Positions 13,983 to 62,100 of a stretch of 64,000 nt of DNA are shown here, piece by piece. Positions within the stretch are counted from its first letter, which is position 1, and each line of letters begins with the position of its first letter. The position numbers and the translations under genes were made by a program. The stretch comes from Branchinecta lynchi (Eukaryota > Arthropoda > Branchiopoda > Anostraca > Branchinectidae). The DNA lies in NCBI GenBank assembly GCA_023053575.1, contig JAKZAP010000017.1, forward strand, positions 21,809,023 through 21,873,022, given 5' to 3'. The notes beneath the pieces were generated by a model. The model did not search any database, was not told where the DNA came from, and saw only the letters and a list, made by a program, of their open reading frames with translations.

Positions 13983-15009
13983 GTTTTTGGGATCCCACAA
14001 CGTAAGTGGAGCAAAATCCCAAATCGCAAAAATGTCCGTCTGTCCGCCTGCCTGTAAGCACGATAACTCTCGAAGGAAATGAGATATTTTGATGAAGCTT
14101 GGTGTGAAAATTCATCGGATCAAGGGTAAGGTCAAGTTCGTAGATGGGTATATATTTAGGGACAAACAAAATATTTTTAATTAGCTAATGTGATAGTCGA
14201 TTATGGGATAAGAAGGCGTGCTGAGACCGATAGTGAAAACCATTTTCTTGCCAGACAAGTAGTTCGTCCGGAATCCGGCAAAAACTGGAAAGGTGATTAA
14301 AAGTAAAAGTTTTATATGAAGTTGATTAAATGTTCGATTAAATGTTCGCAAGAAAACCTGCTGAACACGACGGTGAAAACCATTTTCTCGCCCAACAAGT
14401 AGTTCGTCCGGAATCCAGCGAAAACCAAAAAGTTGGTTAAAAGTAAAAGTTTCATCTGAAGTTGATTAAATGTTAGATTTAGGGGTAAAAAGACAGGCTG
14501 AACACGATGGGGAAAACCATTTTCTCTCCGGACAACTAGTTCGCCCGGAATCCAGCCCCAACCGGAAAATTCGTTAAGAGCAAAAGTTCGATTAGATGAC
14601 AGGTTAAGGGGTAAGAAAAGAGGCTGAGTCTGTATATGACAAACCATTTTTTACCCATACATATAATTAGTCCGGAATCCGGTTGTAACCATAATTTCTT
14701 GTTCAGTCAAAGTTTGATTAGATGTTCTTTATAGGGATAAGGAGATACGCTAGGTTCCTTTCTGAATTTTCTTTTTTTGCTGGACTAGTAGTTCGCTCGG
14801 AATTTGGGTGAAACCGGAAACTTGGCAGAAGTAAAGCAGGAAGTCTTGGTCAGTACCATCAAAATAGATATGGCTTATAGAGGTATATCTGAAGTTAGTT
14901 TTCTCTGATGAGTGGCCTGGCGAAGACTGGATCTGGCGAAGACAAGACCCACTTCTCTGAATAAAATATTAGATTTTTGGGATCCCATCGACACCTTTGG
15001 TCTTGTTCA
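13983..15009 (+). mobile_element. Family G element, copy 2, five tandem units
   Basis: Bounded by TTTTTGGGATCCCACAACG and TTTTTGGGATCCCATCGAC. A (GTCC/GTCT) tract (GTCCGTCTGTCCGCCTGCC) follows the left hairpin, then CACGATAACTCTCGAA and GAAGCTTGGTGTGA. Tandem units start near 14,219, 14,350, 14,489, 14,613 and 14,749 (spacing 124-139 bp), each carrying a version of AGTTCGTCCGGAATCCGGC. The last two units are the most diverged and resemble the last units of copy 1, so the array order is conserved between copies. Confidence 0.8.
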
Positions 15010-25799: not shown

Positions 25800-26010
25800 C
25801 AATAATAGATTTATTGCCCATCATAATGCACAAACGTACAAAAAGACGGAGTAATTAAATGAAGTAGACGAAAACGAACAAGAAAGAAATGAAAAAAAAA
25901 GGAACATTACTGTCAACAGAAATAATGTAAAGAACACAAGAAACTTAAAAAGAAAACCACACAAACTGACAGAACTGTGGTTTTGTCCTCGGTTTTTTTG
26001 TTGTTTTTTT
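25800..26010 (-). mobile_element. Non-LTR retrotransposon 3' UTR
   Basis: Minus strand: a T- and C-rich 3' UTR ends with GATGGGCAATAAATC and a TATTATTGTTATTAC tail. GACGGAGTAA just upstream (plus-strand reading) is shared with the 3' UTR near 59,960-59,985, linking it to the zinc-knuckle lineage. No coding part remains. Confidence 0.45.
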
Positions 26011-26418
26011 TCCTAGCACTCCGATTTCATTTTATTCCTGGTAACTGGTAAGGGTCTAACCTTTGCGGTTTTTACGGCAAATGTGGATTTTAGGCCAGAT
26101 TGATGAATACGACAATACACTTTGGAAAGCTCCGTATAACTCTTGCCTGGGGCCAAAAAGGATGTTTTTTGCTTCTCCTCGAGCCAGAGCCTACGGTGTG
26201 CAAAGTGAAGTGGAGTTATGTCAGAGAGGACTATCTGAAGTTGTGCAGCCAACCTTTCGTTTCATCAAATCATGTTTCTGCTTTCAAGTGGAAAGCTCCG
26301 TTCTAGCACGCAAGCAGGCAGGCACCAGTTTCAAATTGAAGATGGACTAAAATCAATAAGTGTTAAATATATGCGTCAGTCATTCTCGGTCACTCAACGA
26401 GAGAAGGTCACTAAAATC

Positions 26419-26531
26419 GTGCTGTGTAAAACTTGTTTGACGGGTTCTCGTCAGGAAATTAGACTTTGTGGAGTTTGCAGTGCTGTGTAAAACCTGTTTG
26501 CGTCAGGAAAATAGACATTATCGAGCTTGCG
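26419..26531 (+). repeat. 5' UTR tandem repeat of the PWWP retrotransposon
   Basis: GTGCTGTGTAAAACTTGTTTG at 26,419 recurs as GTGCTGTGTAAAACCTGTTTG at 26,480. Both are followed by CGTCAGGAAA and AGAC, giving units of 61 and 52 bp. The second ends right at the ORF1 ATG (26,532). Repeated 5' UTR monomers commonly carry internal promoters in non-LTR elements; promoter function here is inference. Confidence 0.7.
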
Positions 26532-27551
26532 ATGTCCTACAGTATTAATGACGTTGCGTTTGGCAAATTCTACGGCTATCCTTTATGGCCAGTCCGAGTA
26601 GTTGGTGTAACTGCATCGAAGAAGGGGAAATCTTATCAAGTATTTTGCTATGGATCACACGAAAAAGCATCACTGAGTGAGGGATTCATTTTGCCTTTCC
26701 AAGAGAATTTCGCCGAAGCTTCAAAGAAAAAAACAAAAGGAGTTCAAGGTGCATTCACTGAACTTGCCACATTCCCAGATGTGTATCAAGAAATAATGGG
26801 AATCGCTGGTGCTGCCTCGACAAGCAGCGTATCTTCACTCTCGTCTACCCTTGTAAGCGCGCAGAGCGAAATTGCCAAACTGAAAGAGGATCTTCGTCGG
26901 GATATTCACAAACAGGTGATTGAGAAATGTGCAGGGGACAAAAGCGGGATCAATGAACAAGCAATTAACACTATTGTCACTCAGATATATGATGCGATCA
27001 GCCTCGAATACAGTGCAAAATTTACAAGCGTGGAAAAAATGCTCAAGGGGTTTCACGCTCAAATTGCGGCGCTGGAAAACCGCATCGAGAGTCTGGAATA
27101 CCGCAACGACGATTTGGAACAGGAAAGAAGATCGAATGTTCTTCTAGTCCACGGACTGTCTCAGATAGGTGGAGAAACGCTGCCCAATAGCGTCTTAGAG
27201 CTCTTCAGTACTAAGATGGGGATCAGTATGCTTGCTACTGATATCAAGTCAACTGAGCGCTTACGCACTCGAGTTAGTCCAGCGGATACTCTTCTCCCGC
27301 CTGTTCTTGTCACTTTTCATTCATCCGATTGTGCAAAACTCGTGTTCACGAACAAGAAGAAACTGGCCCGATCGAAAGTATTCATATCTGAATATTTAAC
27401 GCCAAAGCGTAAACAACTGCTGAATATGGCACGTGACAAATTTGGAGTTAGGAATGTGTGGACTGATGGTGGCCGCATTCTAGCCAAACCGGAAAACAGC
27501 TCAGCCATCTTGAAAATTAGGTCACTGAATGACTTGATCAGTGAACAGTAA
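26532..27551 (+). CDS. Retrotransposon ORF1 protein: PWWP domain, coiled coil, RNA-binding domain
   Basis: 339 codons from the ATG at 26,532, chosen because the PWWP fold begins just after it. Residues about 5-78 are a PWWP domain: FGKFYGYPLWPVRV has PLWP in place of PWWP (17-20), YQVFCYGSHEKASL is the second core strand (35-48), then FILPFQEN and a basic KKKTKG. By alignment with LEDGF-type domains from memory, aromatic-cage positions are F13, W19 and C39, so one cage aromatic is Cys. Residues about 100-210 are helical coiled coil (AQSEIAKLKEDL, ALENRIESLEYR). From about 217, RRSNVLLVHGL...PPVLVTF...FISEYLTP.R is the FP25K/L1-ORF1p-like nucleic-acid-binding module seen in CR1/L2 ORF1. The PWWP domain would let the ribonucleoprotein bind methylated histone H3 (typically K36) and DNA. 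A standalone host gene is unlikely because ORF2 follows in cis. Confidence 0.85.
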   Translation: MSYSINDVAFGKFYGYPLWPVRVVGVTASKKGKSYQVFCYGSHEKASLSEGFILPFQENFAEASKKKTKGVQGAFTELATFPDVYQEIMGIAGAASTSSVSSLSSTLVSAQSEIAKLKEDLRRDIHKQVIEKCAGDKSGINEQAINTIVTQIYDAISLEYSAKFTSVEKMLKGFHAQIAALENRIESLEYRNDDLEQERRSNVLLVHGLSQIGGETLPNSVLELFSTKMGISMLATDIKSTERLRTRVSPADTLLPPVLVTFHSSDCAKLVFTNKKKLARSKVFISEYLTPKRKQLLNMARDKFGVRNVWTDGGRILAKPENSSAILKIRSLNDLISEQ

Positions 27552-27706
27552 ACCATTTTAATGATACGTTGAGTTCATCTTCATTTTTTTTCGCTTATTT
27601 GGAATTGTCGGTTTTGTTTCCTTAATTTTTTGTCCTTAATTTTTCTGTTTGTTTCGTGCTTGAGATATCAAAGAGTTCTCATTCTTGAGTGTTTTAGAGT
27701 GTTATC

Positions 27707-30700
27707 ATGAATAGTTCGACCAGCAGACTCTCAGATTTAGAAAGTAATCGGCTGTCTGTTGACCAGTTCTTATCTACCCCCATTGCAAACGATAATCTAA
27801 GTGAAGGAAATAATACGCAAGCTATGAAAGCAAGTAATTATGTTGATAATCAGTCGCTGAAGAAATGGTCAGGCAAAGATGATATTGTTTTTGCATTTTG
27901 GAACTGCCAAGGCCTTAGAACAGCGTACCCTACCCTGTGTAACATATTAAGTGATATGCAAGAAACACCGTTAGTAATAGGGCTATGTGAGACGTTTGTG
28001 TCGAATGGGGATAATTATTCAGCGTGGGATTTCCAGTTTCCAGGATATGTCAGTGAAAGAAAAGAACGACAGGTTATGGAGCGAGGCGGTTTGGCTTTAT
28101 TGGTAAAGGAAGGAGTTTCATATTGGGTAAGGGAGGATCTCTCGCTGTGGCTTGAAGGAAGGCTTGAGACTCTTTTTATTGAAATAGAAGATAAATCTGA
28201 TAAAAATATAGTTGTTGGTTTAGTATATAAAACACCGTCATATAATGAGGAAACTTTTATTGAGGAGATGGAGACTTTAATGGAGAAATTGAATAATGAT
28301 CATAAATATAAAGTAGTTATGGGGGATTTCAATATTGACCTCCTTAAAAGTTCAAGCCGTCAAGATTTTCTTAATTCAATGATTTCTTCTTTCCAATACC
28401 CCCTGGTAACTATTCCTACACGAGTGACTGATAAGTCTGCGACGCTGATCGATAATATATTTGTGGATGGAAAGCTGCTTGAATGTTCATATGCTGATGT
28501 TTTACTTACGGATGGATCTGACCATTTTTTTCTTCTTAGTAAAATAAAAAAATCTTACGGGATTATAAATAAGGATGATCAAATAAATAAAACATTCTTT
28601 CGTGATTTAAGAAAAGATAATTTGAAAAAATTTGAGAAAGAAATGGGTGATACAGATTTTACTCCGGTATTTGAAGAAGACAACCCGTCGGTTGCGTATG
28701 ATGTTTTTGTCGCTATGTTTACAAAGGTATTGAATGAGACGTGCCCTCTTAGGAGACTTAAAAGGGGTAGTACGAAATTCCCAAAGAAACCATGGATTAC
28801 TCAGGGTATTCTAAATTCTATAAGTCGGAAAAATGAATTGTATAAAATATACTTAGGTGAACCATCTGTCATTAATTTTCAGCAATTTAAAAATTACCGG
28901 AATACTTTAAACAGATTGAAACGGAAAGCTGAAAAAATGTATTTGCAAGATGAATTTATGAAGCATAAATGTGATATGAAAAAAACATGGAAAACGGTAA
29001 ATTCACTCCTGGGACAAAAGGGTAAAATAGAAGTTATTAATAAATTAGAAACAGAGAGGGGGAATTTGACCACCCCAAAGGATGTCGCAAATTATTTATG
29101 TGAATATTTTTCTAGTGAGGGCGCGAAACTATGTGATGATGCTCGGAAAAGAATTAACCGGGCTCCCAAAATAGTTCAGCCAGAAGTTCCAGTAGATTGT
29201 CAGTTGGTTTTTAATGCTTGCGATACAAATGAAGTTGGAAAAATTATCAGTGGCATGCAATCAAATTCAAGTGGTGTAGATGGGATTTCTCTTAAGATTG
29301 CTAAATCAGTTAAACCAATTATAACACCAATTTTATCTAAATTGATTAATAAATCCATGGAAAAAGGGATTTTCCCAGAAGGTTTGAAGGTCGCTAAAAT
29401 AATACCATTGCATAAAGGAGGCAAGAGAGATGACCCTTCAAACAAAAGACCCATTTCTATCCTCCCTTTTTTTTCAAAAATATATGAAAAGGTGATAGGA
29501 TCCAGGCTAACTGATTACGTTGAAAATAATAAAATTCTTATAAATACTCAGTTTGGTTTCAGGAAAAAAATGTCAACTGAGATGGCGACTATTAAACTTG
29601 TTGACTGGGTAAATACGGCGTTTGAAGCGGGTCTGATTCCAGCTGCTTTATTCCTGGATTTGAAGAAGGCGTTTGACACGATTGACCATAAACAGTTATT
29701 ACTTGAGCTGGAAAAAATCGGTGTGACTGGAAAGAGTTTGTCATGGTTTGAATCTTATTTGAGTGACCGGAAGCAAATTGTGATGAATGGGTGTTTTACT
29801 TCTGTTGCTAGTGAGATAACTTGCGGAGTTCCCCAGGGGTCTATACTAGGTCCCCTTTTATTTTTAATTTTTATAGATCGGATTAAGTATTATTTGTCAG
29901 AGGCTGGTATAATCCTTTTTGCAGATGATACTCTTTTACTTGTAGCTGCTCCATCAGCTGATCTACTTTTTGATAAAATGAGAAAAGCATTGACCGAGTT
30001 CGTTGAGTGGGCAGATTTCAATCTTTTGACATTAAATTATACCAAAACTAATTACATTTTATTTTCTCGGATATCTAGTATTGACACTAATTTAGAATTA
30101 ATAGTAAACGGAAATCAAATAAAAAGAGTAAAGGTAACAAAGTACCTGGGTTTTATGATTGATGAAAATCTATCATGGAAAACACATTCAAATATTATAG
30201 CTTCAAAATTGTCAAGGACCCTGGGAGTGCTTCGCCGAGTTAAAAACCTAGTCTCACAGAAAATTCTTCGATTGCTTTATTTCGCTATTTTTTACCCGTA
30301 CATTTGCTATGGTTGCTCTATATGGGCAAGTAATTTTGTGTCATGTTATAAAAAAATCCAAAAAATCCAAAATAAAGCCGTTAAAATTTTGTCACCTAAA
30401 ACTTTAGTTACTCCTGATATTAATGAACTTTACATTAAGAATCAACTACTTGATATTTCAAAAACTAGAGATTATCAAGTTAGTATTTTCACATATAAAT
30501 TTCTCAATAATATACTTCCCTCCTCTTTTGAAAATTTTTTCTCCATTAATAGTGATCTCCATAGTCATGATACACGAGGGGCATCAAATGTGGTACACCC
30601 ATTTAGAAACACGACTAGAGCTTCTTTCGTGATTAGAAATTTTGCCCCCTCTGTATGGGATATAATTCCAGTTGAAATTAGAAACTCGAGTCATCTGGCA

Positions 30701-30745
30701 TCCTTCAAGGCTACAGCGAAGAGATTTTTCCTTGCAAAAGAATAG
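27707..30745 (+). CDS. Retrotransposon ORF2 protein: APE endonuclease and reverse transcriptase
   Basis: 1,012 codons, uninterrupted. The endonuclease spans about residues 58-285 with all expected catalytic groups: FWNCQG (N66), CETF (E95), GDFNID (206-211), TLIDNIF (246-252) and SDHF (271-274). RT spans about 500-800: KRPISILP, LFLDLKKAFDTID (D651), CGVPQGSILGPLLF (706-719), LFADDTLL (FADD 738-741) and TKYLGFMID. The C-terminus ends in the CR1/L2 motif VWDIIPVEIRN and SFKATAKRFF. The enzyme nicks target DNA and copies its RNA in place (target-primed reverse transcription). Motif spelling places it in the CR1/L2/Daphne/Crack group; the exact clade needs a tree. Confidence 0.95.
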   Translation: MNSSTSRLSDLESNRLSVDQFLSTPIANDNLSEGNNTQAMKASNYVDNQSLKKWSGKDDIVFAFWNCQGLRTAYPTLCNILSDMQETPLVIGLCETFVSNGDNYSAWDFQFPGYVSERKERQVMERGGLALLVKEGVSYWVREDLSLWLEGRLETLFIEIEDKSDKNIVVGLVYKTPSYNEETFIEEMETLMEKLNNDHKYKVVMGDFNIDLLKSSSRQDFLNSMISSFQYPLVTIPTRVTDKSATLIDNIFVDGKLLECSYADVLLTDGSDHFFLLSKIKKSYGIINKDDQINKTFFRDLRKDNLKKFEKEMGDTDFTPVFEEDNPSVAYDVFVAMFTKVLNETCPLRRLKRGSTKFPKKPWITQGILNSISRKNELYKIYLGEPSVINFQQFKNYRNTLNRLKRKAEKMYLQDEFMKHKCDMKKTWKTVNSLLGQKGKIEVINKLETERGNLTTPKDVANYLCEYFSSEGAKLCDDARKRINRAPKIVQPEVPVDCQLVFNACDTNEVGKIISGMQSNSSGVDGISLKIAKSVKPIITPILSKLINKSMEKGIFPEGLKVAKIIPLHKGGKRDDPSNKRPISILPFFSKIYEKVIGSRLTDYVENNKILINTQFGFRKKMSTEMATIKLVDWVNTAFEAGLIPAALFLDLKKAFDTIDHKQLLLELEKIGVTGKSLSWFESYLSDRKQIVMNGCFTSVASEITCGVPQGSILGPLLFLIFIDRIKYYLSEAGIILFADDTLLLVAAPSADLLFDKMRKALTEFVEWADFNLLTLNYTKTNYILFSRISSIDTNLELIVNGNQIKRVKVTKYLGFMIDENLSWKTHSNIIASKLSRTLGVLRRVKNLVSQKILRLLYFAIFYPYICYGCSIWASNFVSCYKKIQKIQNKAVKILSPKTLVTPDINELYIKNQLLDISKTRDYQVSIFTYKFLNNILPSSFENFFSINSDLHSHDTRGASNVVHPFRNTTRASFVIRNFAPSVWDIIPVEIRNSSHLASFKATAKRFFLAKE

Positions 30746-30971
30746 TAATTGATGCGTGAGTGTTTTTGTAAGCAGAATGTTTGTTGTATATGTGTGAACC
30801 GTGTATGAATGGCATTTAGAATAATGTAAAAATAATGTTACCACACTATGTAGAATAGAGAAGACTGCCACCTGCGGCCAACAAACCCTCTGGGGCTTTC
30901 TTAGCAGGTGCTGTAAAATGTTTTGTATACATGTGTAAAATAAAATTTAATCTAATCTAATCTAATCTAAT
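30746..30971 (+). promoter_or_regulatory. Retrotransposon 3' UTR with hairpin and TCTAA tail
   Basis: CACCTGC (30,869-30,875) pairs with GCAGGTG (30,904-30,910) to form a stem enclosing CCCTCTGGGG. The end reads AAATAAAATT and then (TCTAA)n to 30,971. In CR1/L2-type elements a 3' stem-loop plus short tandem tail is what the RT recognises for priming; the function here is inferred from that. Confidence 0.7.
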
Positions 30972-31946
30972 GCGGCAGTTACCCGGCCCCACAGACAACA
31001 TATCTTCTTTGAGTGATAAATAGAAAAATCTACAGAAACAACGAAAGTGCTGCTACCTATTGTTTCTATCCATTTCTGTTCGCAATTTCAGCTGAGTTTA
31101 TCATTCGTTTTTTTGCACTTGAGTTTGCGGCAGAGAACTGGTATCACACGTGCCTCTTAAACTTTTAAAGTTCTCTCACTGCTAAAGAAACTAGAGCTTA
31201 TCCTTTGTTCCTTTCTAAGTGGTGACGTTAGAAAGTTGGCCTACGGCAAAAAAGTCAACTTTTGAACAAAGACAGGTAGAATTTGGGTTTCGACGGCAAT
31301 CTATAGCCGTTGATAAGCTGATCAAAGTATATTGTCATCCAGTTTTTGGTAAAAAAATTCCTTCATGGGATACACCAGTTTGAAAATTCCAAGGGGTTGA
31401 CAACTTCAGTAGTAAGGTACATACTGAAACCAAAAATAGGCGATACCAGTTGTGAGACATGTAGGGGGACCTTGTAAGCAACATTCGACAGTTAGCTCAT
31501 AATCATCTTCGGCAATGAGGGGTTTGCAGCTTTTGCTAGTTGGTGTACCTGTTATTCGTTTCCGGTGTATTCGGTGGTAAGAACAATTTGGTTCCCAATG
31601 GTAAGATATGCCAGGGACTTGTAAGTAATAAATGGCTGTTATGCTACAATCATCTTCAGCGATGAGGAGGTTGTAACTTTTGCTAGCTGGTGTTCCCATT
31701 ATTTGTTTTCCGTGAACTTGATGTCTATCACGGGAGAGGGACTTGTAAGTAGGGATCGGTTCACGAGGGGCTAGAAATTTTGCCAATGGCAGCAAACTGT
31801 ATTCGATTTCTATAGATCTGACGGTAAGAAAGTTTGTGTTGATGGTCTATCGCTCTAACCTAGGATTAACTGTTTACGCAACGGATACAAACGAAAATGT
31901 AAAACAATGAGGTAGTTACATAACAATTAATAGTGTCATCTATTTT

Positions 31947-32834: not shown

Positions 32835-34330
32835 TAATAATAATAATAATAATAATTTATTTCTTACCCACTTACAAAGGGAAAAAGTGGAGTACAAGGA
32901 GAAAAAACAAAGAACTACAAATAACACAAAATACAAGAAAAAGAAATAACAATTTAGCAAAAGAGGCGGATAAGACGATTGTTAGGACCAAGACGGATTG
33001 GCGCTTCATCAGTTAATTTTGAACTTAGTTTTTCCACTGAAAGAACAATATCCGTTGCCTGATACTGACTAATTAACCTTCGGTTCCGAAATGAACGTGG
33101 TAAATAAAGTAAGAACTTACAATACCGATAGTAATCCGTCTTGACCCTCTTTACGTCACCTTTATTCAGAAGCATATAAAACCCAGCACAAAATAACACA
33201 GAATGGTCGCAGAAACTCGAGTACAGCTTTGTAAGTGCTTGTCGCCGGAAATGTCCACGATTTCCAACAATTTTAGAATACCCCAGTTTAAGCTTAATCT
33301 GAATATCCCGAATTGTCTGAAAACGAAAAGAACTTAGAGAATTGCAAAAAGAAATCCCAAGCCATCGAAAAGAAGTGACTTGTGGTACAGAAAAAGAAAT
33401 GCAATCCAAAGGATGAGACGAACTGACCCCATTAAATATAAGAAATTCACATTTATCTACGTTTAGCAATAATCCAATTCTTGCAAATGCAGCGGCGACG
33501 GAGCGGACAGAACGCGCCAAACCGGCCTCAGTTGGGCTAATAAGAAGCAAATCGTCAGCATAAGCTAAGTATGATACGTCTGTGAATCCTGTAAAACAAG
33601 AAGTACGTATACCAGACAAAACATTTTCAATAGAAGCATTAAAGATATGAGGGGAGAGAACTCCCCCCTGTCTAACTCCACACTTAACTGGTATATGTCC
33701 GAAAAAATCACCACTTCCTGACTTTAATCTTAAATAAGAATTTGAATACCAAAACTTCAGAACCAGAATCACAGACGCATTCACACCAAGTTGACTAAGA
33801 GCATACCAAGCTTGAGCATGGCAAACACTATCGAATGCTTTAGATATATCAAGGGTGCAAAAATGAAGACTATAACTATTCCGAGTGGCTTCCTTAATAA
33901 GCTGAGCTAAAACACGATGAGCATGTTGACAGCTCAGACCTGACCTGAAACCGAACTGGTTAGCCTCATAATTGACAAATTCATCGATATGTGGAAGTAG
34001 AACATACTCAAATAATTTGCTTAGAGTACAGGCGACGGTAATTGGCCTGTAAGAATTACACGAATTTAGATCTTTTCCTTTCTTTAAAATAGAAGTAACA
34101 CTTCCACATAAAAATGAATCAGGAACAATAGACCTTGAAAGGCACATCTGAAATAATAACTGAAGATGTGATAGAAGTTCAGCTGACTTCGGATCAAGAT
34201 GAGCCGCACAGATACCATCAAGGTCACAAGACTTTGACTTTAACCGTCGAAGAGATTTCACAATATTAGATTTATCAACAGGTATAACATGTCTTTGGCT
34301 CACACTATTAGGAAGAACCTTCACCACTAA
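32835..34330 (-). mobile_element. 5'-truncated non-LTR retrotransposon in the array
   Basis: Minus strand. RT gene 32,954-34,327 followed by a 3' UTR ending in CACTTTTTCCCTTTGTAAG, GGGTAAGAAATAAATT and an (ATT)n tail at 32,836-32,857. It lies between the end of block R and block Q; GGCTGTTAT and GGCTATGAT at the two borders may be a diverged target duplication. Endonuclease and ORF1 are missing because of 5' truncation. Confidence 0.8.
32954..34327 (-). CDS. Reverse transcriptase (partial ORF2), intact RT core
   Basis: 457 codons open from the truncation point to a stop at 32,954. Motifs in order: ILKKGKDLNSCNSYRPITVA (81-100), FCTLDISKAFDSV (D160), KCGVRQGGVLSPHIFN (215-230), YLAYADDLLLIS (YADD 256-259) and FRWLGISF. 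All catalytic aspartates are present. The protein lacks endonuclease and the C-terminal Cys-His motif. Related to the RT genes at 58,376 and 60,034 (-) but a distinct family. The first Met is not a true start. Confidence 0.85.
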   Translation of the reverse strand: MVKVLPNSVSQRHVIPVDKSNIVKSLRRLKSKSCDLDGICAAHLDPKSAELLSHLQLLFQMCLSRSIVPDSFLCGSVTSILKKGKDLNSCNSYRPITVACTLSKLFEYVLLPHIDEFVNYEANQFGFRSGLSCQHAHRVLAQLIKEATRNSYSLHFCTLDISKAFDSVCHAQAWYALSQLGVNASVILVLKFWYSNSYLRLKSGSGDFFGHIPVKCGVRQGGVLSPHIFNASIENVLSGIRTSCFTGFTDVSYLAYADDLLLISPTEAGLARSVRSVAAAFARIGLLLNVDKCEFLIFNGVSSSHPLDCISFSVPQVTSFRWLGISFCNSLSSFRFQTIRDIQIKLKLGYSKIVGNRGHFRRQALTKLYSSFCDHSVLFCAGFYMLLNKGDVKRVKTDYYRYCKFLLYLPRSFRNRRLISQYQATDIVLSVEKLSSKLTDEAPIRLGPNNRLIRLFC

Positions 34331-35556: not shown

Positions 35557-36914
35557 GGTGTCGATGGGATCCCAAAAATCTAAGATTTGATCCAGACAAT
35601 TGGGTCTTGTCTTCGCCAGGCTAATCATCAAAGAAAACCGAGTTCAGATATTCCATCTATCTATCAATCTATACCTCTATAGGCCATATCTATTTTTATT
35701 CAAACAATGTTTACAACGGATACGTCAGCTATGATACATCATCAGCGATATTTCGGCCCTTCTTGGCAAGGGTCCTCGTCAGGCTGTCAATCCTCTGGTT
35801 CAACTTCGGGGAAGGAAACTAACCTGTAATAAGCTGAACCAGAAAGTTGAACCAGAGGATTGACAGCCTGACGAGGACCCTTGCCAAGAAGGGTCGAAAT
35901 ATCACTGATCCTCATAGCTGACGTATCCGCGTTGTAAACATTGTTTGAATAAATGTTTCAAAGTCAGCTTGGGCTCAAAGAATATTCATATCTATTTTGA
36001 TGATACTGAAAGTAACTTCCTGCTTTACTTCTGCCAAATTTGCGGTTTCGCCGGAATTCCGAGCCAACTACTAGTCCAGCAAAAAAAGAAAATTCAGAAA
36101 CGAATCCAGTGTATCTCGTTGTCCCTATAAGAACATCCACTCAGCATTAAATAGAACTTTGACTTAAAAAAATACGGGTACAACCGGATTCCGGACTAAT
36201 AATATGTCCGTGTAAATAATGATTGTCATATACAGACTCAGCGTCTCTTCTTACCCCTAAATCTAACATCTAATCAACTTCAGATAAAACTTTTGCTTTT
36301 GATATATTTTCCGGTTTTGGCCGGATTCCAGGAGAACTAGTTGTCCGGCGAGAAAATGGTTTTCACCATCGTGTTCAACATGTCTTCTTACCTCTAAATA
36401 AAACATTTAATCAACTTCAAATGAAACTTTTACTTCTAACCAACTTTCCGGTTTTTGCCGGATTCCGGACGAACTACTTGTCCAGCGAGAAAATGGTTTT
36501 CACCATCGTGTTTAGCATGTTTTCTTATCCCTAAATCAAACATTTAATCAACTTTAAATGAAGCTTTTACTTTTGACAAACTTTCCGGTTTTTGCCGGAT
36601 TCCGGACGAACTACTTGTCCGACGAGAAAATAAATTTCACCATCGTGCTCAGCGTGTTTTTTTTTACCCCATAATCGACTATCACATTAGCTGTTTAAAA
36701 TATTTTGTTTGTCCCTTACTTTGAACCCCCACCCCCAAATATAGGGCTACAGAGCCCATCTACGAACTCGACCTTACCCTTGACCCAAACAATCCGCACA
36801 CCAATTTTCATCAAAATATCTAATTTTCTTCAACAGGTATCGTGCTTACAGACGGACGGACAACTTTTGCGCTGTCATAGGTATCCCTCCACTTACGTTT
36901 TGGGATCCCAAAAA
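35557..36914 (-). mobile_element. Family G element, copy 4, interrupted by a fold-back
   Basis: Minus orientation: TCGATGGGATCCCAAAAATC at 35,560 and ACGTTTTGGGATCCCAAAA at 36,895-36,912. Near the second end is CTTACAGACGGACGGACAAC. The body has four units with AACTAGTTGTCCGGCGAGAA or AACTACTTGTCC..CGAGAAAA and CACCATCGTGTT, spaced about 120-130 bp. A fold-back element occupies 35,698-35,950. Confidence 0.8.
35698..35950. mobile_element. Fold-back of a Penelope-like block with hammerhead-like cores
   Basis: Two arms of about 105 bp are inverted copies of each other: TCAAACAATGTTTACAACG ... CTGGTTCAAC against its complement, with about 40 bases between. Each arm contains CTGACGAGGACCCTTGCCAA then GAAGGGTCGAAATATC (35,868-35,903 plus; 35,747-35,782 minus). 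That is CUGANGA, a 7-bp stem and GAAA. Half copies are at 21,190-21,246 and 50,424-50,457. Confidence 0.7.
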
Positions 36915-45187: not shown

Positions 45188-46174
45188 AGGTTTCGATGGG
45201 ATCCCAAAAATTCAATATCTAATCCAGACAACTGGGTTGTCTTAGTCAGATCCAGTCATCGCCAGACTCCTTGAACATTTTTACAATTAAATTCATAAAC
45301 AGATTAAGGCCAAATAGCTAATCATCTGAGAAAAACTTCCTGCCACTACCGCCAATTTCCCGATTTCGGCCAAACTCCAGAACTAATTGTCCGGCGAAAA
45401 AATGAAAGCTCAAAAATGAACTCAGGGTATCTTCTTTCCCCAAGAATGAACATCTAATCAACTTCAAATAAAAATTAAAATATGATTGTCACACACGGAT
45501 TCAGCATCTCCTCTTACCCCTAAACCGGTTATCTAATCAACTAGAAATAAAACTTTAACTTCTACCAATTTTCCGGTTTCGGCCGGATTCCGGGCGAACT
45601 ACATGTCCGGATAGAAAATTCTTTTCACATAAGTGTTCATCATGTCTTCTCGCCTAAATCGAACATCTAATAAACTTCAACTAAAACGTTTAATTTTAAC
45701 AAACTTTCCGATTTGGGCCGGATTCCGGGCGAACTACTTGTCCGTCGAGAAAATGGCTTTCACCACCGTGTTCAGCGTGTCCTCCTACCCCTAAATCAAA
45801 CATCTAATCAACTTATAATAAAACTTTTACTTTTAACAAACTTTCCGGTTTTAAAATAGTTTTCACCATCGTGTTCAGCATGTCTTCTTACCCCATAATC
45901 GACTATCACATTAGCTGTTTCAAAATATTTAGTTTGCCCCTTAATTTTAAACCCCTCCCCCACCCCTAAATGTAGGGCTACATAGCCCATCTACGAGCTT
46001 GACTGGTCCGACGACCCAACGAATCCTCACACCAAGTTTCACTAAAATATCTCATTCCCTTCGAGAGTTATCGTGCTTACAGACGGACGGACAGACGGAC
46101 GGACGGACGGATAGACGGACAAATTTTGCGATGTCATAGGTATCCCTCCACTTACGTTTTGGGATCCCAAAAAT
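45188..46174 (-). mobile_element. Family G element, copy 6, with expanded GACG tract
   Basis: GTTTCGATGGGATCCCAAAA at 45,190 and ACGTTTTGGGATCCCAAAA at 46,154-46,172. The tetranucleotide tract at 46,080-46,119 has about ten GACR units (AGACGGACGGACAGACGGAC and on), the longest in the family. At least four body units with CCGGATTCCGGGCGAACTAC and TGTCCG..GAGAAAA occur. Confidence 0.8.
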
Positions 46175-55791: not shown

Positions 55792-56880
55792 ATGCGGTTG
55801 ATATGGAATGCGGTCCTGAACTTTGTGCCGCGGTCAATGCTTGGTGAAATAAAGAAAGATGTCTTTCTAAACAGACCAGTGGAATTTTTCAAACACGACG
55901 ATATTCTGGCTGCGAAATAACTTTTGCATAAGGAAGCTGGCGTGACCGAAAGATGCGTGAAGTCGGCTAAGGACTTGGATAATGTCACAGACATAGCAAA
56001 GTGGTTCGCCGTTTGCGCTAAAAACAATGTGGCGCTTCCCAAGTTTGTGATATTCGAGCCCCAGGAAGTGCCCACCTGTGCCGAGGATATAGGCGCGTGC
56101 ATCAAAACTCAGGTGAACACGATGTTCAGAAAGTCTGACGGACTTTACGAACAGATGATATCCAGAGGACAAGGTCAGGTCTCTAAACCAGTAAGCAGTC
56201 CTCTTAGTCCTACCCCCCTCCCATATTCGGTAGTCGTCAAAAATCCCCCCTCGCTAAATTCTCCCGAAGAAAGAATGACTTTCATCAACGATATGTGTGG
56301 CGATCATCTAAGGGATGAGCCGGTCGAGCTAAAACAGACTAAAAACGAATGGCGTGTTGTCGTCAGAAGAAAGGCAACTGCCAATCATATAGCCTCCTCG
56401 CTTAAGAGCAAGTATGAAGGGCTGGAGACTCTCGTGAAAACTCCGGTATTTATTGGTGTGTTAAAGCGAATCCCCCGATTGTACAGTGCTGAAAAACTCA
56501 AAGACAGTATCCCCAACTGTACGAAAGTTGAACAGTGCGGGCATACTCGTACATTCAAGGTATTTTTCGATACACGAGAAAACCTCACTAGTGCGGTAAA
56601 CGATCCTCCCAAATTCGGCTACGAACGTTTTCAGATACAAGAGTTTGTCTTCCTGCCAAGGCGCTGCTTCCAGTGTCACTCATATGGGCATATTGCCGCA
56701 CAATGTACGAATAGCCCCCGTTGTCAAAATTGCGCAGATGAAAAGCACTGCGACTCCCCCAACGAGCGGTGCTCAAGACCAGTGGCTTGTACTCTCTGCA
56801 ACCAAAAGGGTCACAATTGCAGCTCATTCAAGTGTCCTGAACCGAGGAAGCTCACTGGGCGCTCCACTAACTCCAAATGA
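55792..56880 (+). pseudogene. Retrotransposon ORF1 (zinc-knuckle Gag-like), one premature stop
   Basis: From ATG 55,792 the frame reads MRLIWNAVLNFVPRSML, NRPVEFFKHDDILAAK, stop TAA 55,918-55,920, then LLHKEAGVTERCVKSAKDLD and on to TGA at 56,880. TAA replaces what was probably a Gln codon. The central part has an RRM-like fold candidate. The C-terminus has CFQCHSYGHIAAQC (C-x2-C-x4-H-x4-C, 56,664-56,706), CQNCADEKHC and CTLCNQKGHNCSSFKC. Three Cys-His knuckles are usual in ORF1 of Jockey/R1/I-group elements, where the protein coats the RNA. Overlaps ORF2 by 4 nt (ATGA). Confidence 0.8.
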
Positions 56881-58617
56881 AAGTCATATCGTGGAATATG
56901 AATGGCGGAGTCATAAACAAAACACCGATAATCGAACATTTCTGTAGCACTGCCGATATAGTTTGCGTGCAGGAACACTTCCTCACTAGTGACAATCTTA
57001 GCCTATTAACTTTCCCTGACCGGTACTGTGTAACGGCTGTCCCTGCAAAAGTAAGCCTCACTGGAGGGCGGCCCTCAGGCGGCCTAGCAGTGCTATCGCG
57101 CTTGCACCTTCGACACGTGCTGATAATGCAGTCGGACTATTTCTTGGCCATCCGCATTGACAGACTTGCCGTGATCTGCGTATATCTCCCAACAAACTAC
57201 AATAACGAGAAGTCTGACTATAAGTTCAACTTGAGTATCGAATCCCTTGCGTGTTGGATGAGAAAAGTCAAACTGCTCGGCATCGATAGCGTCATCATAG
57301 GCGACTTTAACTGTGATGTCATGGATCCCCCCTCGCACTGAACCCAGTCCCTCCTAGGAGTATTAAATGATGAGTTTAAAGTGCTTCCAAAGGACGGCCA
57401 GTTTACCTACGTGCATACGAGCGGGTCTACATCGAACCTTGATCATGCTTTTACCTCTAGCGGGATTTCGGGCTCAGTCTCTCTAATGTATGAATCGTTC
57501 TCGATTGATCACATTCCCATACAGTGCTCGCTAAGCTTCCAAGAACCTCCGACAGTGTCAGCTAGAATGGATAGAAAATGGTTCGAAGTGCGTGACTGGA
57601 AACGATTTGACTGTTCCTTATACCAGTCAGTGCTCGACGGTGTCCTGTCCAAAATCCGTGTTCCCTTCGATTTACTACAGCCTAGGTTACGTGGTTCTAT
57701 CAGTGACGCTAAAACTCGGTTGAATATTTTCCTAGCCGAGATAAGCCACGGTCTTAAAGTCGCAGAATCTGCCGCGGTTCCCGTCCGGAAAGTAAGGAGA
57801 GGCACAGAAGTGCCAGGCTTCACATCCGATCCTAGCCTGGTAAACTCCTGTAAAAGTGCAAAGTTCTGGTTTGCCGTGTGGAAAGAGTGTGACCAGCCGC
57901 GATCGGGCGTCGTTAACTCGCTGTGAGTGTATACAAAGCGAAAGTTCGATAAAGCTCTCAGGAATCACCAGTGTAAAGTCAAGGCGGGATTTACCGAGCG
58001 AATAATGAATAATCCATCTTCAATATGGAAGTTACGTGATAAAGAATCAAATGTATGCTACAAAGAAAAAATTTAATCTAAAGTCTGGCAAACTTATTTT
58101 ACTAATGAATTTTCAGCACCTGACGTTACATTATCTTCACCATTTGCGGTCGGATTGGATAATATTCTCATAGATCCTCCCCCGTCGAATTTTGTTGTGT
58201 CGCGGGATGCAGTCATTGATTGTATTTTAAAATTAAGTAAGAAACGATCTAGTGGTTCAGAGGGTATTTCTGCTATCCAACTTATTTATGGAACTTTACT
58301 ACTGTTCGATTACCTTACTCTTCTGTATCAAATGATTTTTGCACAGGTATTGTCCCAGATTCATTTTGTGTCGGTATGATAACACCCGTGCTAAAGAAGG
58401 GCAAACCTGAGAACTCTTGCTCGTCTTATCGCCCCATTACTGTTTCATCAACGTTTTGTAAGATTTTTGAGCGTCTTGTATCTGCTAGTATTCGTAAGTT
58501 TTGTTGGATGCCTGAATTCCAGTGCGGATTCAGGAAGGGTTTAGGTTGCTTGCAAGCCCTGCTCGTGCTTTCTGAAGTGCTCATTGTTGACTTCTCAGAG
58601 AAACGAAACATCTGGTC
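56877..58617 (+). pseudogene. Retrotransposon ORF2 (endonuclease and partial RT), broken
   Basis: Starts at ATG 56,877 inside the ORF1 stop. Endonuclease: VISWNMNGGVINK, VCVQEHFL, IIGDFNCDV (57,294 on), TSNLDHAFT and SIDHIPIQCSLS. In-frame stops at 57,339-57,341, 57,924-57,926 and about 58,073; a frameshift near 58,330; then GIVPDSFCVGMITPVLKKGK, SSYRPITVSSTFCKIFERLV, FQCGFRKGLGCLQALLVL. The protein ends at a MITE-1 insertion (58,613) before the catalytic Asp motif, and the rest of RT does not resume beyond it. Inactive. Confidence 0.85.
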
Positions 58618-59914: not shown

Positions 59915-62100
59915 CATCATCATTTTATTTGTAGCCCGTCACTGAACAAAACTGGGCGAGGCCCAGAAAAGACGGAGTAAAAAACAAGAAAAACGAAAGA
60001 GAAACAATAGAAAGGAAAAACATACTTCGATAACTAAGAACTCGGAACAAACAAAAAAGACCAACAATGGAATGACTCCTGACATTCGGTAGAAAAATCA
60101 TTAATCCGCTTCTCAATAACTCCCGCTGGGTTTACCAATCGGTACTTTCTTTGCAGAAAATAATTACTTGTCCACGCTGGCAGTCCCATCAAATACTTTG
60201 CAAATTTGAAATAAAGGCGGTGAACTTGCTTCCGCTTACCACAATTAAAAAAAGACCAAACGGGAGCAAGAGCGAGTAGGTGAGGAACTGTTAGGCTATT
60301 ATATAACTGAGATCGGTGTGCTCGACTCAGATACGAAAAGTTTGAAGCCAGGGATGCGTATGCGGCCCGGATCTTTCGAGCATAATTTTTCAGTGCTAGG
60401 TTTCCAGTTTCTTTCAGGTTCGCTCCGATTGGCATACCCAGGTAAGTAAGACTGCTAGCGAAAGGAACTTCAGGGCCCGATAGACTTATTGAACGTCTGT
60501 TTCCTTTGTAGTTAAACGGTAGAACAACTGTCTTATCAGTGTTAAAACTCAAACCGATATGCTTGTACTCTTCTTGGAGACGCTCAAAAGTCGAAGAACA
60601 TCCTTGGAAGGTGCAAGAAAGGTTCAGTAGATCATCCGCAAACGTAACTAGCGACAGATCAACTCCTTTAAAGATAAAAGTGCAATTTAACTTATCCTGT
60701 GCACCATTGACACAGTTATTGAATAAAACTGGAGAGGTCAGAGCTCCTTGGCGCACACCTTTCAGGATTTCAAATAGCAGACTACCATCTTTAATTTTAG
60801 CTTTCAGGTTTCTGTACATATATCTTAGACAAAAAATTACCGCAGCATCAACACCTTTCTTATGAGCCTCAAGCAAAACCTGCGCGAATATACACGAGTC
60901 AAAAGCTCTTGCGACATCAAGTGCACATAAAATCAAAAATTCACCTCGGTCTTAAATGTCCTTTAGCACATTTATAAGTAGAAGGAGAGCATGCTCTTTA
61001 CCTAAACCTCGCTGGTACCCGAACTGGCGAGGAGGGGCGGAACATTTCTCTTCAATGTCTCTTATCAAAAATGACTCAAAGAGCTTGAACGTAGTACAGG
61101 AGACAGTAATGGGGCGATAAGAACTGCACATGGAACCGTCTTTTTTACCCTTTTTAAGGATGGGAGTTATTTGTCCGACACAAAATTGCATAGGGACTAC
61201 ACCGCGAACCAGGATCATCTGAAACAGTAGAGCTAGATGTTGCTCGATTAAAGGACCTGCAAGTTGTAGGTGCCTTGCTGTAATAGAGTCAACACTAGAG
61301 GATGATTTTTTCTTTAATTTTCGAATTAGAGAGTGAATGACACTTGGCGACACAAACAGGAAAGATTTCAACTTATTTGAAAGAGCAAGGTCTAGCTGTT
61401 TTTCAAAAAACTCCTGTGTATTTTGGTTTGGTGCACTGAACTCGCGCTCAAAATATTCAACCCACTTTTTTTCAGGCACACTGGTACTCGGGACTTTGGC
61501 AGGCTTGATATTCTTCCAGAGTTTGGAGGGGTATTCAGCAATCCGGATAACATTTTTCTGAATCAGCATTAGCTTATGGTTTTTCAGTTCCTTGTTGAAT
61601 TTCCGTTTCGTACGGAGTCTCAGGTCGTTGACTAAGCCATCTCGCGGTCGACCACAATCATTCCAAACAGAAAGCCAGAGCTTAGCCGAATTACACACAT
61701 TTACTAAAGCTCTGTTTTTTTACCAATCTTCGACCTGAGACTTTTTACGAACACGTCGAAGAGGAACAGCACTTGATTCAGCACATTCCAACGCGTGATT
61801 TATTTGTGCTAAGTAGGAAGTGAGCTCAACTGAGGTATTCTTTTCACTTTGTGGCAGCACAGCCTGATCACATAGGAGATTGAAAGGCACTTTGATTTTG
61901 GTCAGGATCTCGTCACAAACTTTACTGAATGTCTCACTTGATACATTTTTCCAGTCTCGGTATGAAAACCAGTTCGATTCTTTATTTTCAGTTGCCGGTG
62001 GGAAGGAATCAAAACAAGTAGAGATGGGAAGGTGGTCCGAGTAAAATCCGTCTTTCACAACTTTGACTTCATGACAGCCGAACGAAGCAACAACGAGATT
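59915..62100 (-). pseudogene. 5'-truncated zinc-knuckle-lineage retrotransposon, two stops
   Basis: One minus-strand frame from about 62,098 to 60,034 is broken only by TAA near 61,719 and TAA at 60,952-60,954. It begins in the endonuclease (HEVKVVKDGFYSDHLPIS). It continues through YRDWKNVSSETFSK, SAKLWLSVWNDCGRPRDGLV, ITPILKKGKKDGSMCSSYRP, CALDVARAFDSC, LKGVRQGALTSPVLF and SLVTFADDLLNLS (FADD), then LTYLGMPIGANL. The 3' UTR ends GACGGGCTACAAATAAA with an (ATG)n tail at 59,915-59,925. Same lineage as 55,792-58,617 but a different family. Confidence 0.85.

Follow-up and report, generated by a model that had tools for sequence, protein, structure and literature searches.

A LINE of Branchinecta lynchi with a PWWP domain in its ORF1 protein

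The window, the whole stretch of DNA analysed here, is 64,000 nucleotides of the Branchinecta lynchi genome (contig JAKZAP010000017.1, positions 21,809,023 to 21,873,022 of the forward strand). It contains a complete LINE with two open reading frames, the first of which encodes a protein with a PWWP domain. The features of the element, numbered from the first letter of the window, are as follows.

26371..26375, no strand: 5' target-site duplication ATGCG, flanking the element and present as a single copy in the empty sites L020, L021 and L028
26376..30969, + strand: complete LINE, 4594 bp, with ends common to six other genomic copies
26419..26530, + strand: 5' UTR with an imperfect tandem duplication at spacings of 61 and 52 bp (repeat families D11 and D5)
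26532..27551, + strand: ORF1, 339 aa, an open frame from ATG 26532 to TAA 27551, with PWWP, coiled coil, RRM-like domain and C-terminal domain (Pfam, model and fold search)
26532..26801, + strand: PWWP domain and its C-terminal helices, residues 1-90 (PF00855, HDGF alignment and model)
26829..27128, + strand: coiled coil, residues ~100-199 (helices 100-133 and 142-199 in the model)
27129..27551, + strand: RRM-like domain (residues ~200-280, predicted fold only) and C-terminal domain (residues ~281-339, PF25298), from Pfam and Foldseek
27707..30745, + strand: ORF2, 1012 aa, intact, with AP-type endonuclease and reverse transcriptase (PF03372 and PF00078)
30869..30910, + strand: short stem-loop in the 3' UTR with a 7-bp stem, CACCTGC / GCAGGTG (centroid fold)
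30949..30969, + strand: (AATCT)n 3' tail, seen in the sequence, with a repeat number that differs among copies
30970..30974, no strand: 3' target-site duplication ATGCG, on the same basis as the 5' copy

The initial annotation gave the coordinates 26532 to 27551, which are right for ORF1 but not for the whole element (26376-30969). Six other copies in the same genome are 98.96-99.91% identical to it, and their alignments begin at 26376-26379 and stop at 30967-30971. Since these copies have common ends, the PWWP domain lies inside the mobile element, which excludes the concern raised at the outset that it might belong to sequence outside the repeat. Copy L010 has a 191-base internal deletion in ORF2, and both ORFs are full length in the other five. 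The LINE is judged to have been recently active because its copies are near-identical. The insertion host is another repeat, which is found in uninterrupted form in L020, L021 and L028 (TTAAATATATGCGGCAGTTACC). The element is flanked by ATGCG at either end, and the empty sites have this motif once; therefore, the duplication is 5 bp. Duplications in the L2 clade peak at 3-5 bp and those of CR1 are similar (PMC4245944), and the duplication of the window copy fits this short class. The stability of the whole 3' UTR is not above that of shuffled sequences (z 0.11), and an Rfam scan of the window returned nothing at gathering thresholds.

The window also has several features related to other repeats. 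The repeat that hosts the LINE occupies 25974-26380 and 30970-31943, with the LINE nested within it. A 457-aa open frame at 32957-34327 on the minus strand matches PF00078 (E 9e-36) and represents a second retroelement. Shorter open frames with PF03372 endonuclease and PF00078 reverse transcriptase matches are located at 56877-57338 (+) and 60037-60936 (-). Three similar-looking tandem arrays with units of ~135-140 bp are located at 14220-14588, 36237-36657 and 45500-45851; the first is apparently opposite in orientation, and the three are perhaps one dispersed satellite family. A 106-nt unit occurs twice in 31471-31723, spaced 147 nt, and the two units are 73% alike.

The intact ORF2 initially reported downstream of ORF1 was borne out. 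Its matches to PF03372 (E 7.3e-10) and PF00078 (E 7.7e-32) are both above the cut-off, and it contains FADD, GDFN and SDH motifs. The element is a LINE by its endonuclease and reverse transcriptase ORF2, its copies with common ends and its target-site duplication. In an ORF2 tree of 121 rows (FastTree), drawn from the best 120 of 1091 matches, the ORF2 of the window groups with P0014 and then with P0015-P0018 at a local support of 100. Among the matches listed, the PHD domain PF00628 is present in the ORF2 relatives P0033, P0062, P0127 and P0128. These PHD-bearing relatives, together with the domains of ORF2 and the 5-bp duplication, are consistent with a CR1/L2-type element, as initially annotated. 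A linkage of the ORF1 P0012 to the ORF2 P0043, suggested by their contigs of equal length (4442), was considered and not used, since the 13-row clade that surrounds the ORF2 of the window does not include P0043.

The PWWP domain that the initial annotation proposed in ORF1 was recovered by PF00855, which matches residues 7-72 with an E-value of 5.6e-7 and a score of 30.4 bits against the curated cut-off of 25.6. PF25298 matches residues 290-335 (E 8.4e-7), and an NCBIfam search with four proteins gave no match above the cut-off. The best solved sequence relatives of ORF1 are HDGF-family PWWP domains; the first is 2nlu (E 1.2e-8), and its alignment over residues 2-84 takes in the helices after the barrel. 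A profile search with the 13-row alignment gave a best HDGF match of E 4.4e-12. By best match, the domain is therefore assigned to the HDGF/LEDGF-type PWWP subtype.

The AlphaFold2 model of ORF1, built from 13 sequences, has a mean pLDDT of 82.8 and a pTM of 0.56. Strands are predicted within residues 8-55, helices within 56-88, a long coiled coil over 100-199 and then a mixed fold. In Foldseek the human LINE-1 ORF1p trimer ranks first (2yko, E 1.4e-5), followed by the PWWP domain of HDGF (5xsl, E 2.4e-5, target TM 0.78). The distant relative P0012, which is 39% identical, gives the same model and fold matches with a mean pLDDT of 86.0. The predicted models of the two family members P0001 and P0012 have the five-stranded barrel followed by helices that is typical of a PWWP domain, and their coiled coil, RRM and C-terminal domain suggest a Type II (LINE-1-like) ORF1. 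The fusion of a PWWP domain to the coiled coil and RNA-binding part of a LINE ORF1, as first suggested, is thus seen in the model and in the LINE-1 ORF1p fold match. When the model was compared with the viral library, baculovirus Fp/25k ranked first (E 3.3e-5). The PWWP domain of Shuguo solved with ssDNA (6kco), which we take to be a Drosophila protein, is among both the sequence and the fold matches.

Searches of the protein database found 12 relatives of ORF1, and some of them may belong to this species or a near relative of it. In ten of them the protein is full length and its alignment includes the PWWP domain; the two closest, P0002 (82% identical) and P0003 (75-76%), have their annotated start at an internal Met and are without it. 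PF00855 is found at E <= 0.001 in eight of the ten, with P0004, P0005, P0007, P0009 and P0010 above the cut-off and P0008, P0012 and P0013 just below it. P0006 and P0011 have no PF00855 match at E <= 0.001; at E <= 0.1 the domain is found in four of six members, the fourth presumably being P0006. Viral contigs scanned with ORF1 and ORF2, and prokaryote genome contigs scanned with ORF1, yielded no relatives.

The ORF1 protein is widespread in its own genome. A search of the 575.7 Mb assembly scored 119 of 549 candidates and gave at least 134 matches at E <= 0.001. Of these, 73 span from residue 20 or before to residue 279 or beyond, 15 are N-terminal pieces that reach no further than residue 106, and 44 start after residue 20. 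Twenty loci were picked to cover the whole of ORF1 and a range of identities, and are not a random sample; six of them are the copies of the window element described above. When clustered at 80% identity together with the ORF1 of the window, their ORF1s fall into nine groups, whose representatives are 33.8-61.9% identical to each other. PF00855 is above the cut-off in all 10 own-genome ORF1s scanned, which cover all nine groups, and 20 of 20 loci have a downstream match to ORF2 in the same orientation. The match at L025 is only a fragment (query 93-150) and that at L027 covers query 12-521; ORF2 is open for at least 1000 aa at nine of the 20 loci (L009, L011-L014, L019, L021, L024 and L026). 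The search for further copies, suggested at the outset, therefore found the same domain order in nine lineages.

In the ORF1 tree the database proteins are interleaved with the own-genome lineages. The pairs L027/P0006 and L028/P0013 are starred, and L024 pairs with P0012 at 81. This interleaving fits an old diversification of the PWWP-ORF1 lineages. The ORF1 of L026 is 38.5% and its ORF2 53.8% identical to those of the window, and the values for L019 are 45.6% and 53.2%; an exchange of ORF1 between lineages is possible from these identities.

A search of the same genome with PF00855 gave at least 115 matches (150 of 173 candidates scored). Compared with the 119 main ORF1 places, which leave out the 15 N-terminal pieces, 72 of the 115 overlap, 14 are within 1.5 kb and 29 are elsewhere. 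Seven matches were inspected, six from the 29 plus L034, which is 1.4 kb from an ORF1 match and belongs to the L015 lineage. L030 is a host gene, since its best match is ZMYND8, and the FFG motif of L029 suggests a host protein as well. L031 and L032 are near-identical and have an F/I-C-Y-G motif (FCYG or ICYG), and L031 is closest to HDGF among solved structures; the two may be further LINE lineages. L035, a PWWP match away from the ORF1 matches, has a CCYG motif and is possibly another such lineage.

Mean pairwise identities were calculated over the 55 pairs of 11 full-length proteins, the one of the window included. The PWWP core (residues 1-55) has a mean of 52.9% and the C-terminal domain 53.4%; the values are 41.7% for the post-PWWP helices, 32.1% for the linker, 44.2% for the coiled coil and 43.9% for the RRM-like domain. 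The constraint on the PWWP core is thus similar to that on the best-conserved of the remaining parts of the protein, which argues for a function. Between the window and L015, dN is 0.239 in residues 1-90 and 0.334 in residues 100-339; since synonymous sites are saturated between lineages, no dN/dS ratio is given.

The methyl-lysine cage of LEDGF is formed by M15, Y18, W21 and F44 and is flanked by H48 and E49 (PMC3663649). In HMMER alignments the equivalent residues of the window are F13, Y16, W19 and C39, flanked by H43 and E44. Across the 21 own-genome ORF1s, the positions of the first three walls are Phe in 21, Tyr in 20 and Phe in one, and Trp in 21. The F44 position is Cys in all 21, the H48 position is His in 19 with one Arg and one Gln, and the E49 position is Glu or Asp in 20 and Gln in one. 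Many of these proteins are near-identical, so the independent number is nine lineages. The 11 proteins of the database alignment (window included) have Phe in 11, Tyr in 10 and Phe in one, and Trp in 11 at the aromatic walls; Cys in 10 and Ala in one at the F44 position; and His in 11, followed by Asp in seven, Glu in two, Asn in one and Thr in one, at the flanks. Since the F44 equivalent is Cys or Ala, the cage differs from that of LEDGF, and the domain is not classed as a LEDGF-type reader, although it may still work like one. The retention of the Cys across nine lineages looks like an adapted site and not a decaying one.

Cage mutations have been described in related proteins. In HRP3, F48A lowers the affinity for an H3K36me3 peptide 6.7-fold and Y22A 15-fold (PMC6547440). 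LEDGF F44A does not bind nucleosomes and is perhaps misfolded (PMC3663649). The PWWP domains of LEDGF and HRP3 bind both DNA and H3K36-methylated tails (PMC3663649, PMC6547440), and the basic loop of LEDGF that contacts DNA is K73-R74-K75. This loop is only partly kept in the LINE proteins; it is K-T-K in the window and gapped in four of the 11 proteins.

The favored reading, in line with the steering proposed in the initial annotation, is that the PWWP-bearing ORF1 protein docks the LINE nucleoprotein on nucleosomes, most likely those with H3K36me2/3, near transcribed chromatin; we put its probability at roughly 0.58. The probable source of the domain is an HDGF/LEDGF-like host protein, from which it would have been acquired long ago. 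By analogy with LINE-1 ORF1p, the protein would trimerise via its coiled coil and coat the LINE RNA with its RRM and C-terminal part. The PWWP domain would then contact nucleosomal DNA and the histone tail as LEDGF and HRP3 do, with H3K36me2/3 the most likely mark, and the ORF2 protein would thereby be brought close to transcribed chromatin, where it would carry out target-primed reverse transcription. The cage Cys may give an affinity or a ligand preference other than that of LEDGF. Since three aromatic walls are kept and the fourth is Cys, chromatin docking appears likely and classical H3K36me reading plausible, and the mark preference is the weakest step of the mechanism. The points against this reading are the non-aromatic fourth cage position, the incomplete basic loop, the lack of a PWWP domain in P0002 and P0003, and the PF00855 scores of the ten full-length database relatives, five of which exceed the cut-off. 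More tentative is the fuller picture of a large, old group of LINEs with its own LEDGF-like tether and a Cys-modified cage, preferring a chromatin state such as H3K36-methylated gene bodies.

It is also conceivable, but rather unlikely, that the PWWP domain no longer reads methyl-lysine and serves as a DNA- or RNA-binding or nucleosomal-DNA module without a mark preference. Such a role would fit the Cys or Ala that the LINE proteins have at the F44 position, whereas host gene L030 and host-looking L029 keep Phe there; the other inspected matches have Cys (L031, L032, L034 and L035) or Thr (L033). A net charge of +2 to +6 over the first ~90 residues in all 11 proteins and the ssDNA-bound Shuguo structure among the matches point the same way. 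However, the other three walls are largely retained, as are the His that follows and the acidic residue (the latter in 9 of the 11 database-alignment proteins and 20 of the 21 own copies), and pure DNA binding has no obvious need for any of these.

Another alternative is that the domain binds a host protein or another histone mark and acts in nuclear import, retention or escape from silencing. The conserved F-Y/F-W-C cage is unlike that of the HDGF relatives and would fit a changed ligand. No result suggests a partner, however, and PWWP domains of the HDGF/LEDGF type are best known for nucleosome binding; therefore, this alternative is improbable. A chance fusion, an assembly artefact or a host exon beside a LINE fragment has a negligible probability, since only the lack of a PWWP domain in P0002 and P0003 speaks for it, and ten full-length database relatives, the six copies with common ends (against chance or a chimera) and the same fusion in nine lineages (against a neighboring host gene) speak against it.

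The nine lineages coexist in a single genome, and some of them have near-identical copies, which makes them a natural system for the comparison of insertion maps. A further question, posed by the conserved cage Cys, is what an altered PWWP cage recognises.

Several known systems share parts of this architecture. HDGF, HRP2, HRP3 and LEDGF/PSIP1 have the same PWWP subtype by best match, with an alignment through the post-barrel helices; these are host proteins with Phe at the cage position where the LINE ORF1 has Cys. The human LINE-1 ORF1p trimer is matched by the predicted coiled coil, RRM-like domain and C-terminal domain of ORF1, and we know of no PWWP domain in LINE-1 ORF1p. The baculovirus protein FP/25K, for which PF25298 is named, matches the C-terminal part of ORF1; it is a viral protein and not a LINE, and no PWWP domain is named in the match.

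The closest parallel among LINEs comes from the work of Metcalfe and Casane (2014), who classified the ORF1s of 448 Jockey-superfamily elements (PMC4120745). The Type IIC CR1/L2 LINEs described there, with a PHD finger and a LINE-1-like Tnp22 ORF1, have the same arrangement of a reader-type N-terminus followed by coiled coil, RRM and C-terminal domain, and their ORF2 likewise has an AP endonuclease and a reverse transcriptase; they carry PHD whereas the LINE described here carries PWWP. The word PWWP is absent from the main text of that paper, and the PWWP passages of PMC3978060 are unrelated. The initial annotation knew of no described PWWP domain in a CR1-type ORF1, and none in any LINE was found in the open PMC literature by title and start of abstract, although a description in Repbase only or in a closed source is possible. 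As far as these searches go, a PWWP domain at the position where relatives carry PHD is an undescribed ORF1 architecture. Most AP-endonuclease LINEs are described as having relaxed target specificity (PMC4120745).

Chromoviruses, which are Ty3/gypsy elements with a chromodomain on the integrase, likewise carry their own chromatin reader, which is thought to influence insertion (PMC3605345, PMC2832683). These are LTR elements with an integrase, and both the domain and the protein differ from those of the LINE. In retroviruses, host LEDGF/p75 tethers the retroelement complex to chromatin via the same type of PWWP domain. This retroviral use of LEDGF/p75 is treated in PMC13204740. There the reader comes from the host, whereas the LINE encodes its own, and this self-encoded PWWP domain would make chromatin-guided LINE insertion directly testable, in parallel to HIV and LEDGF.
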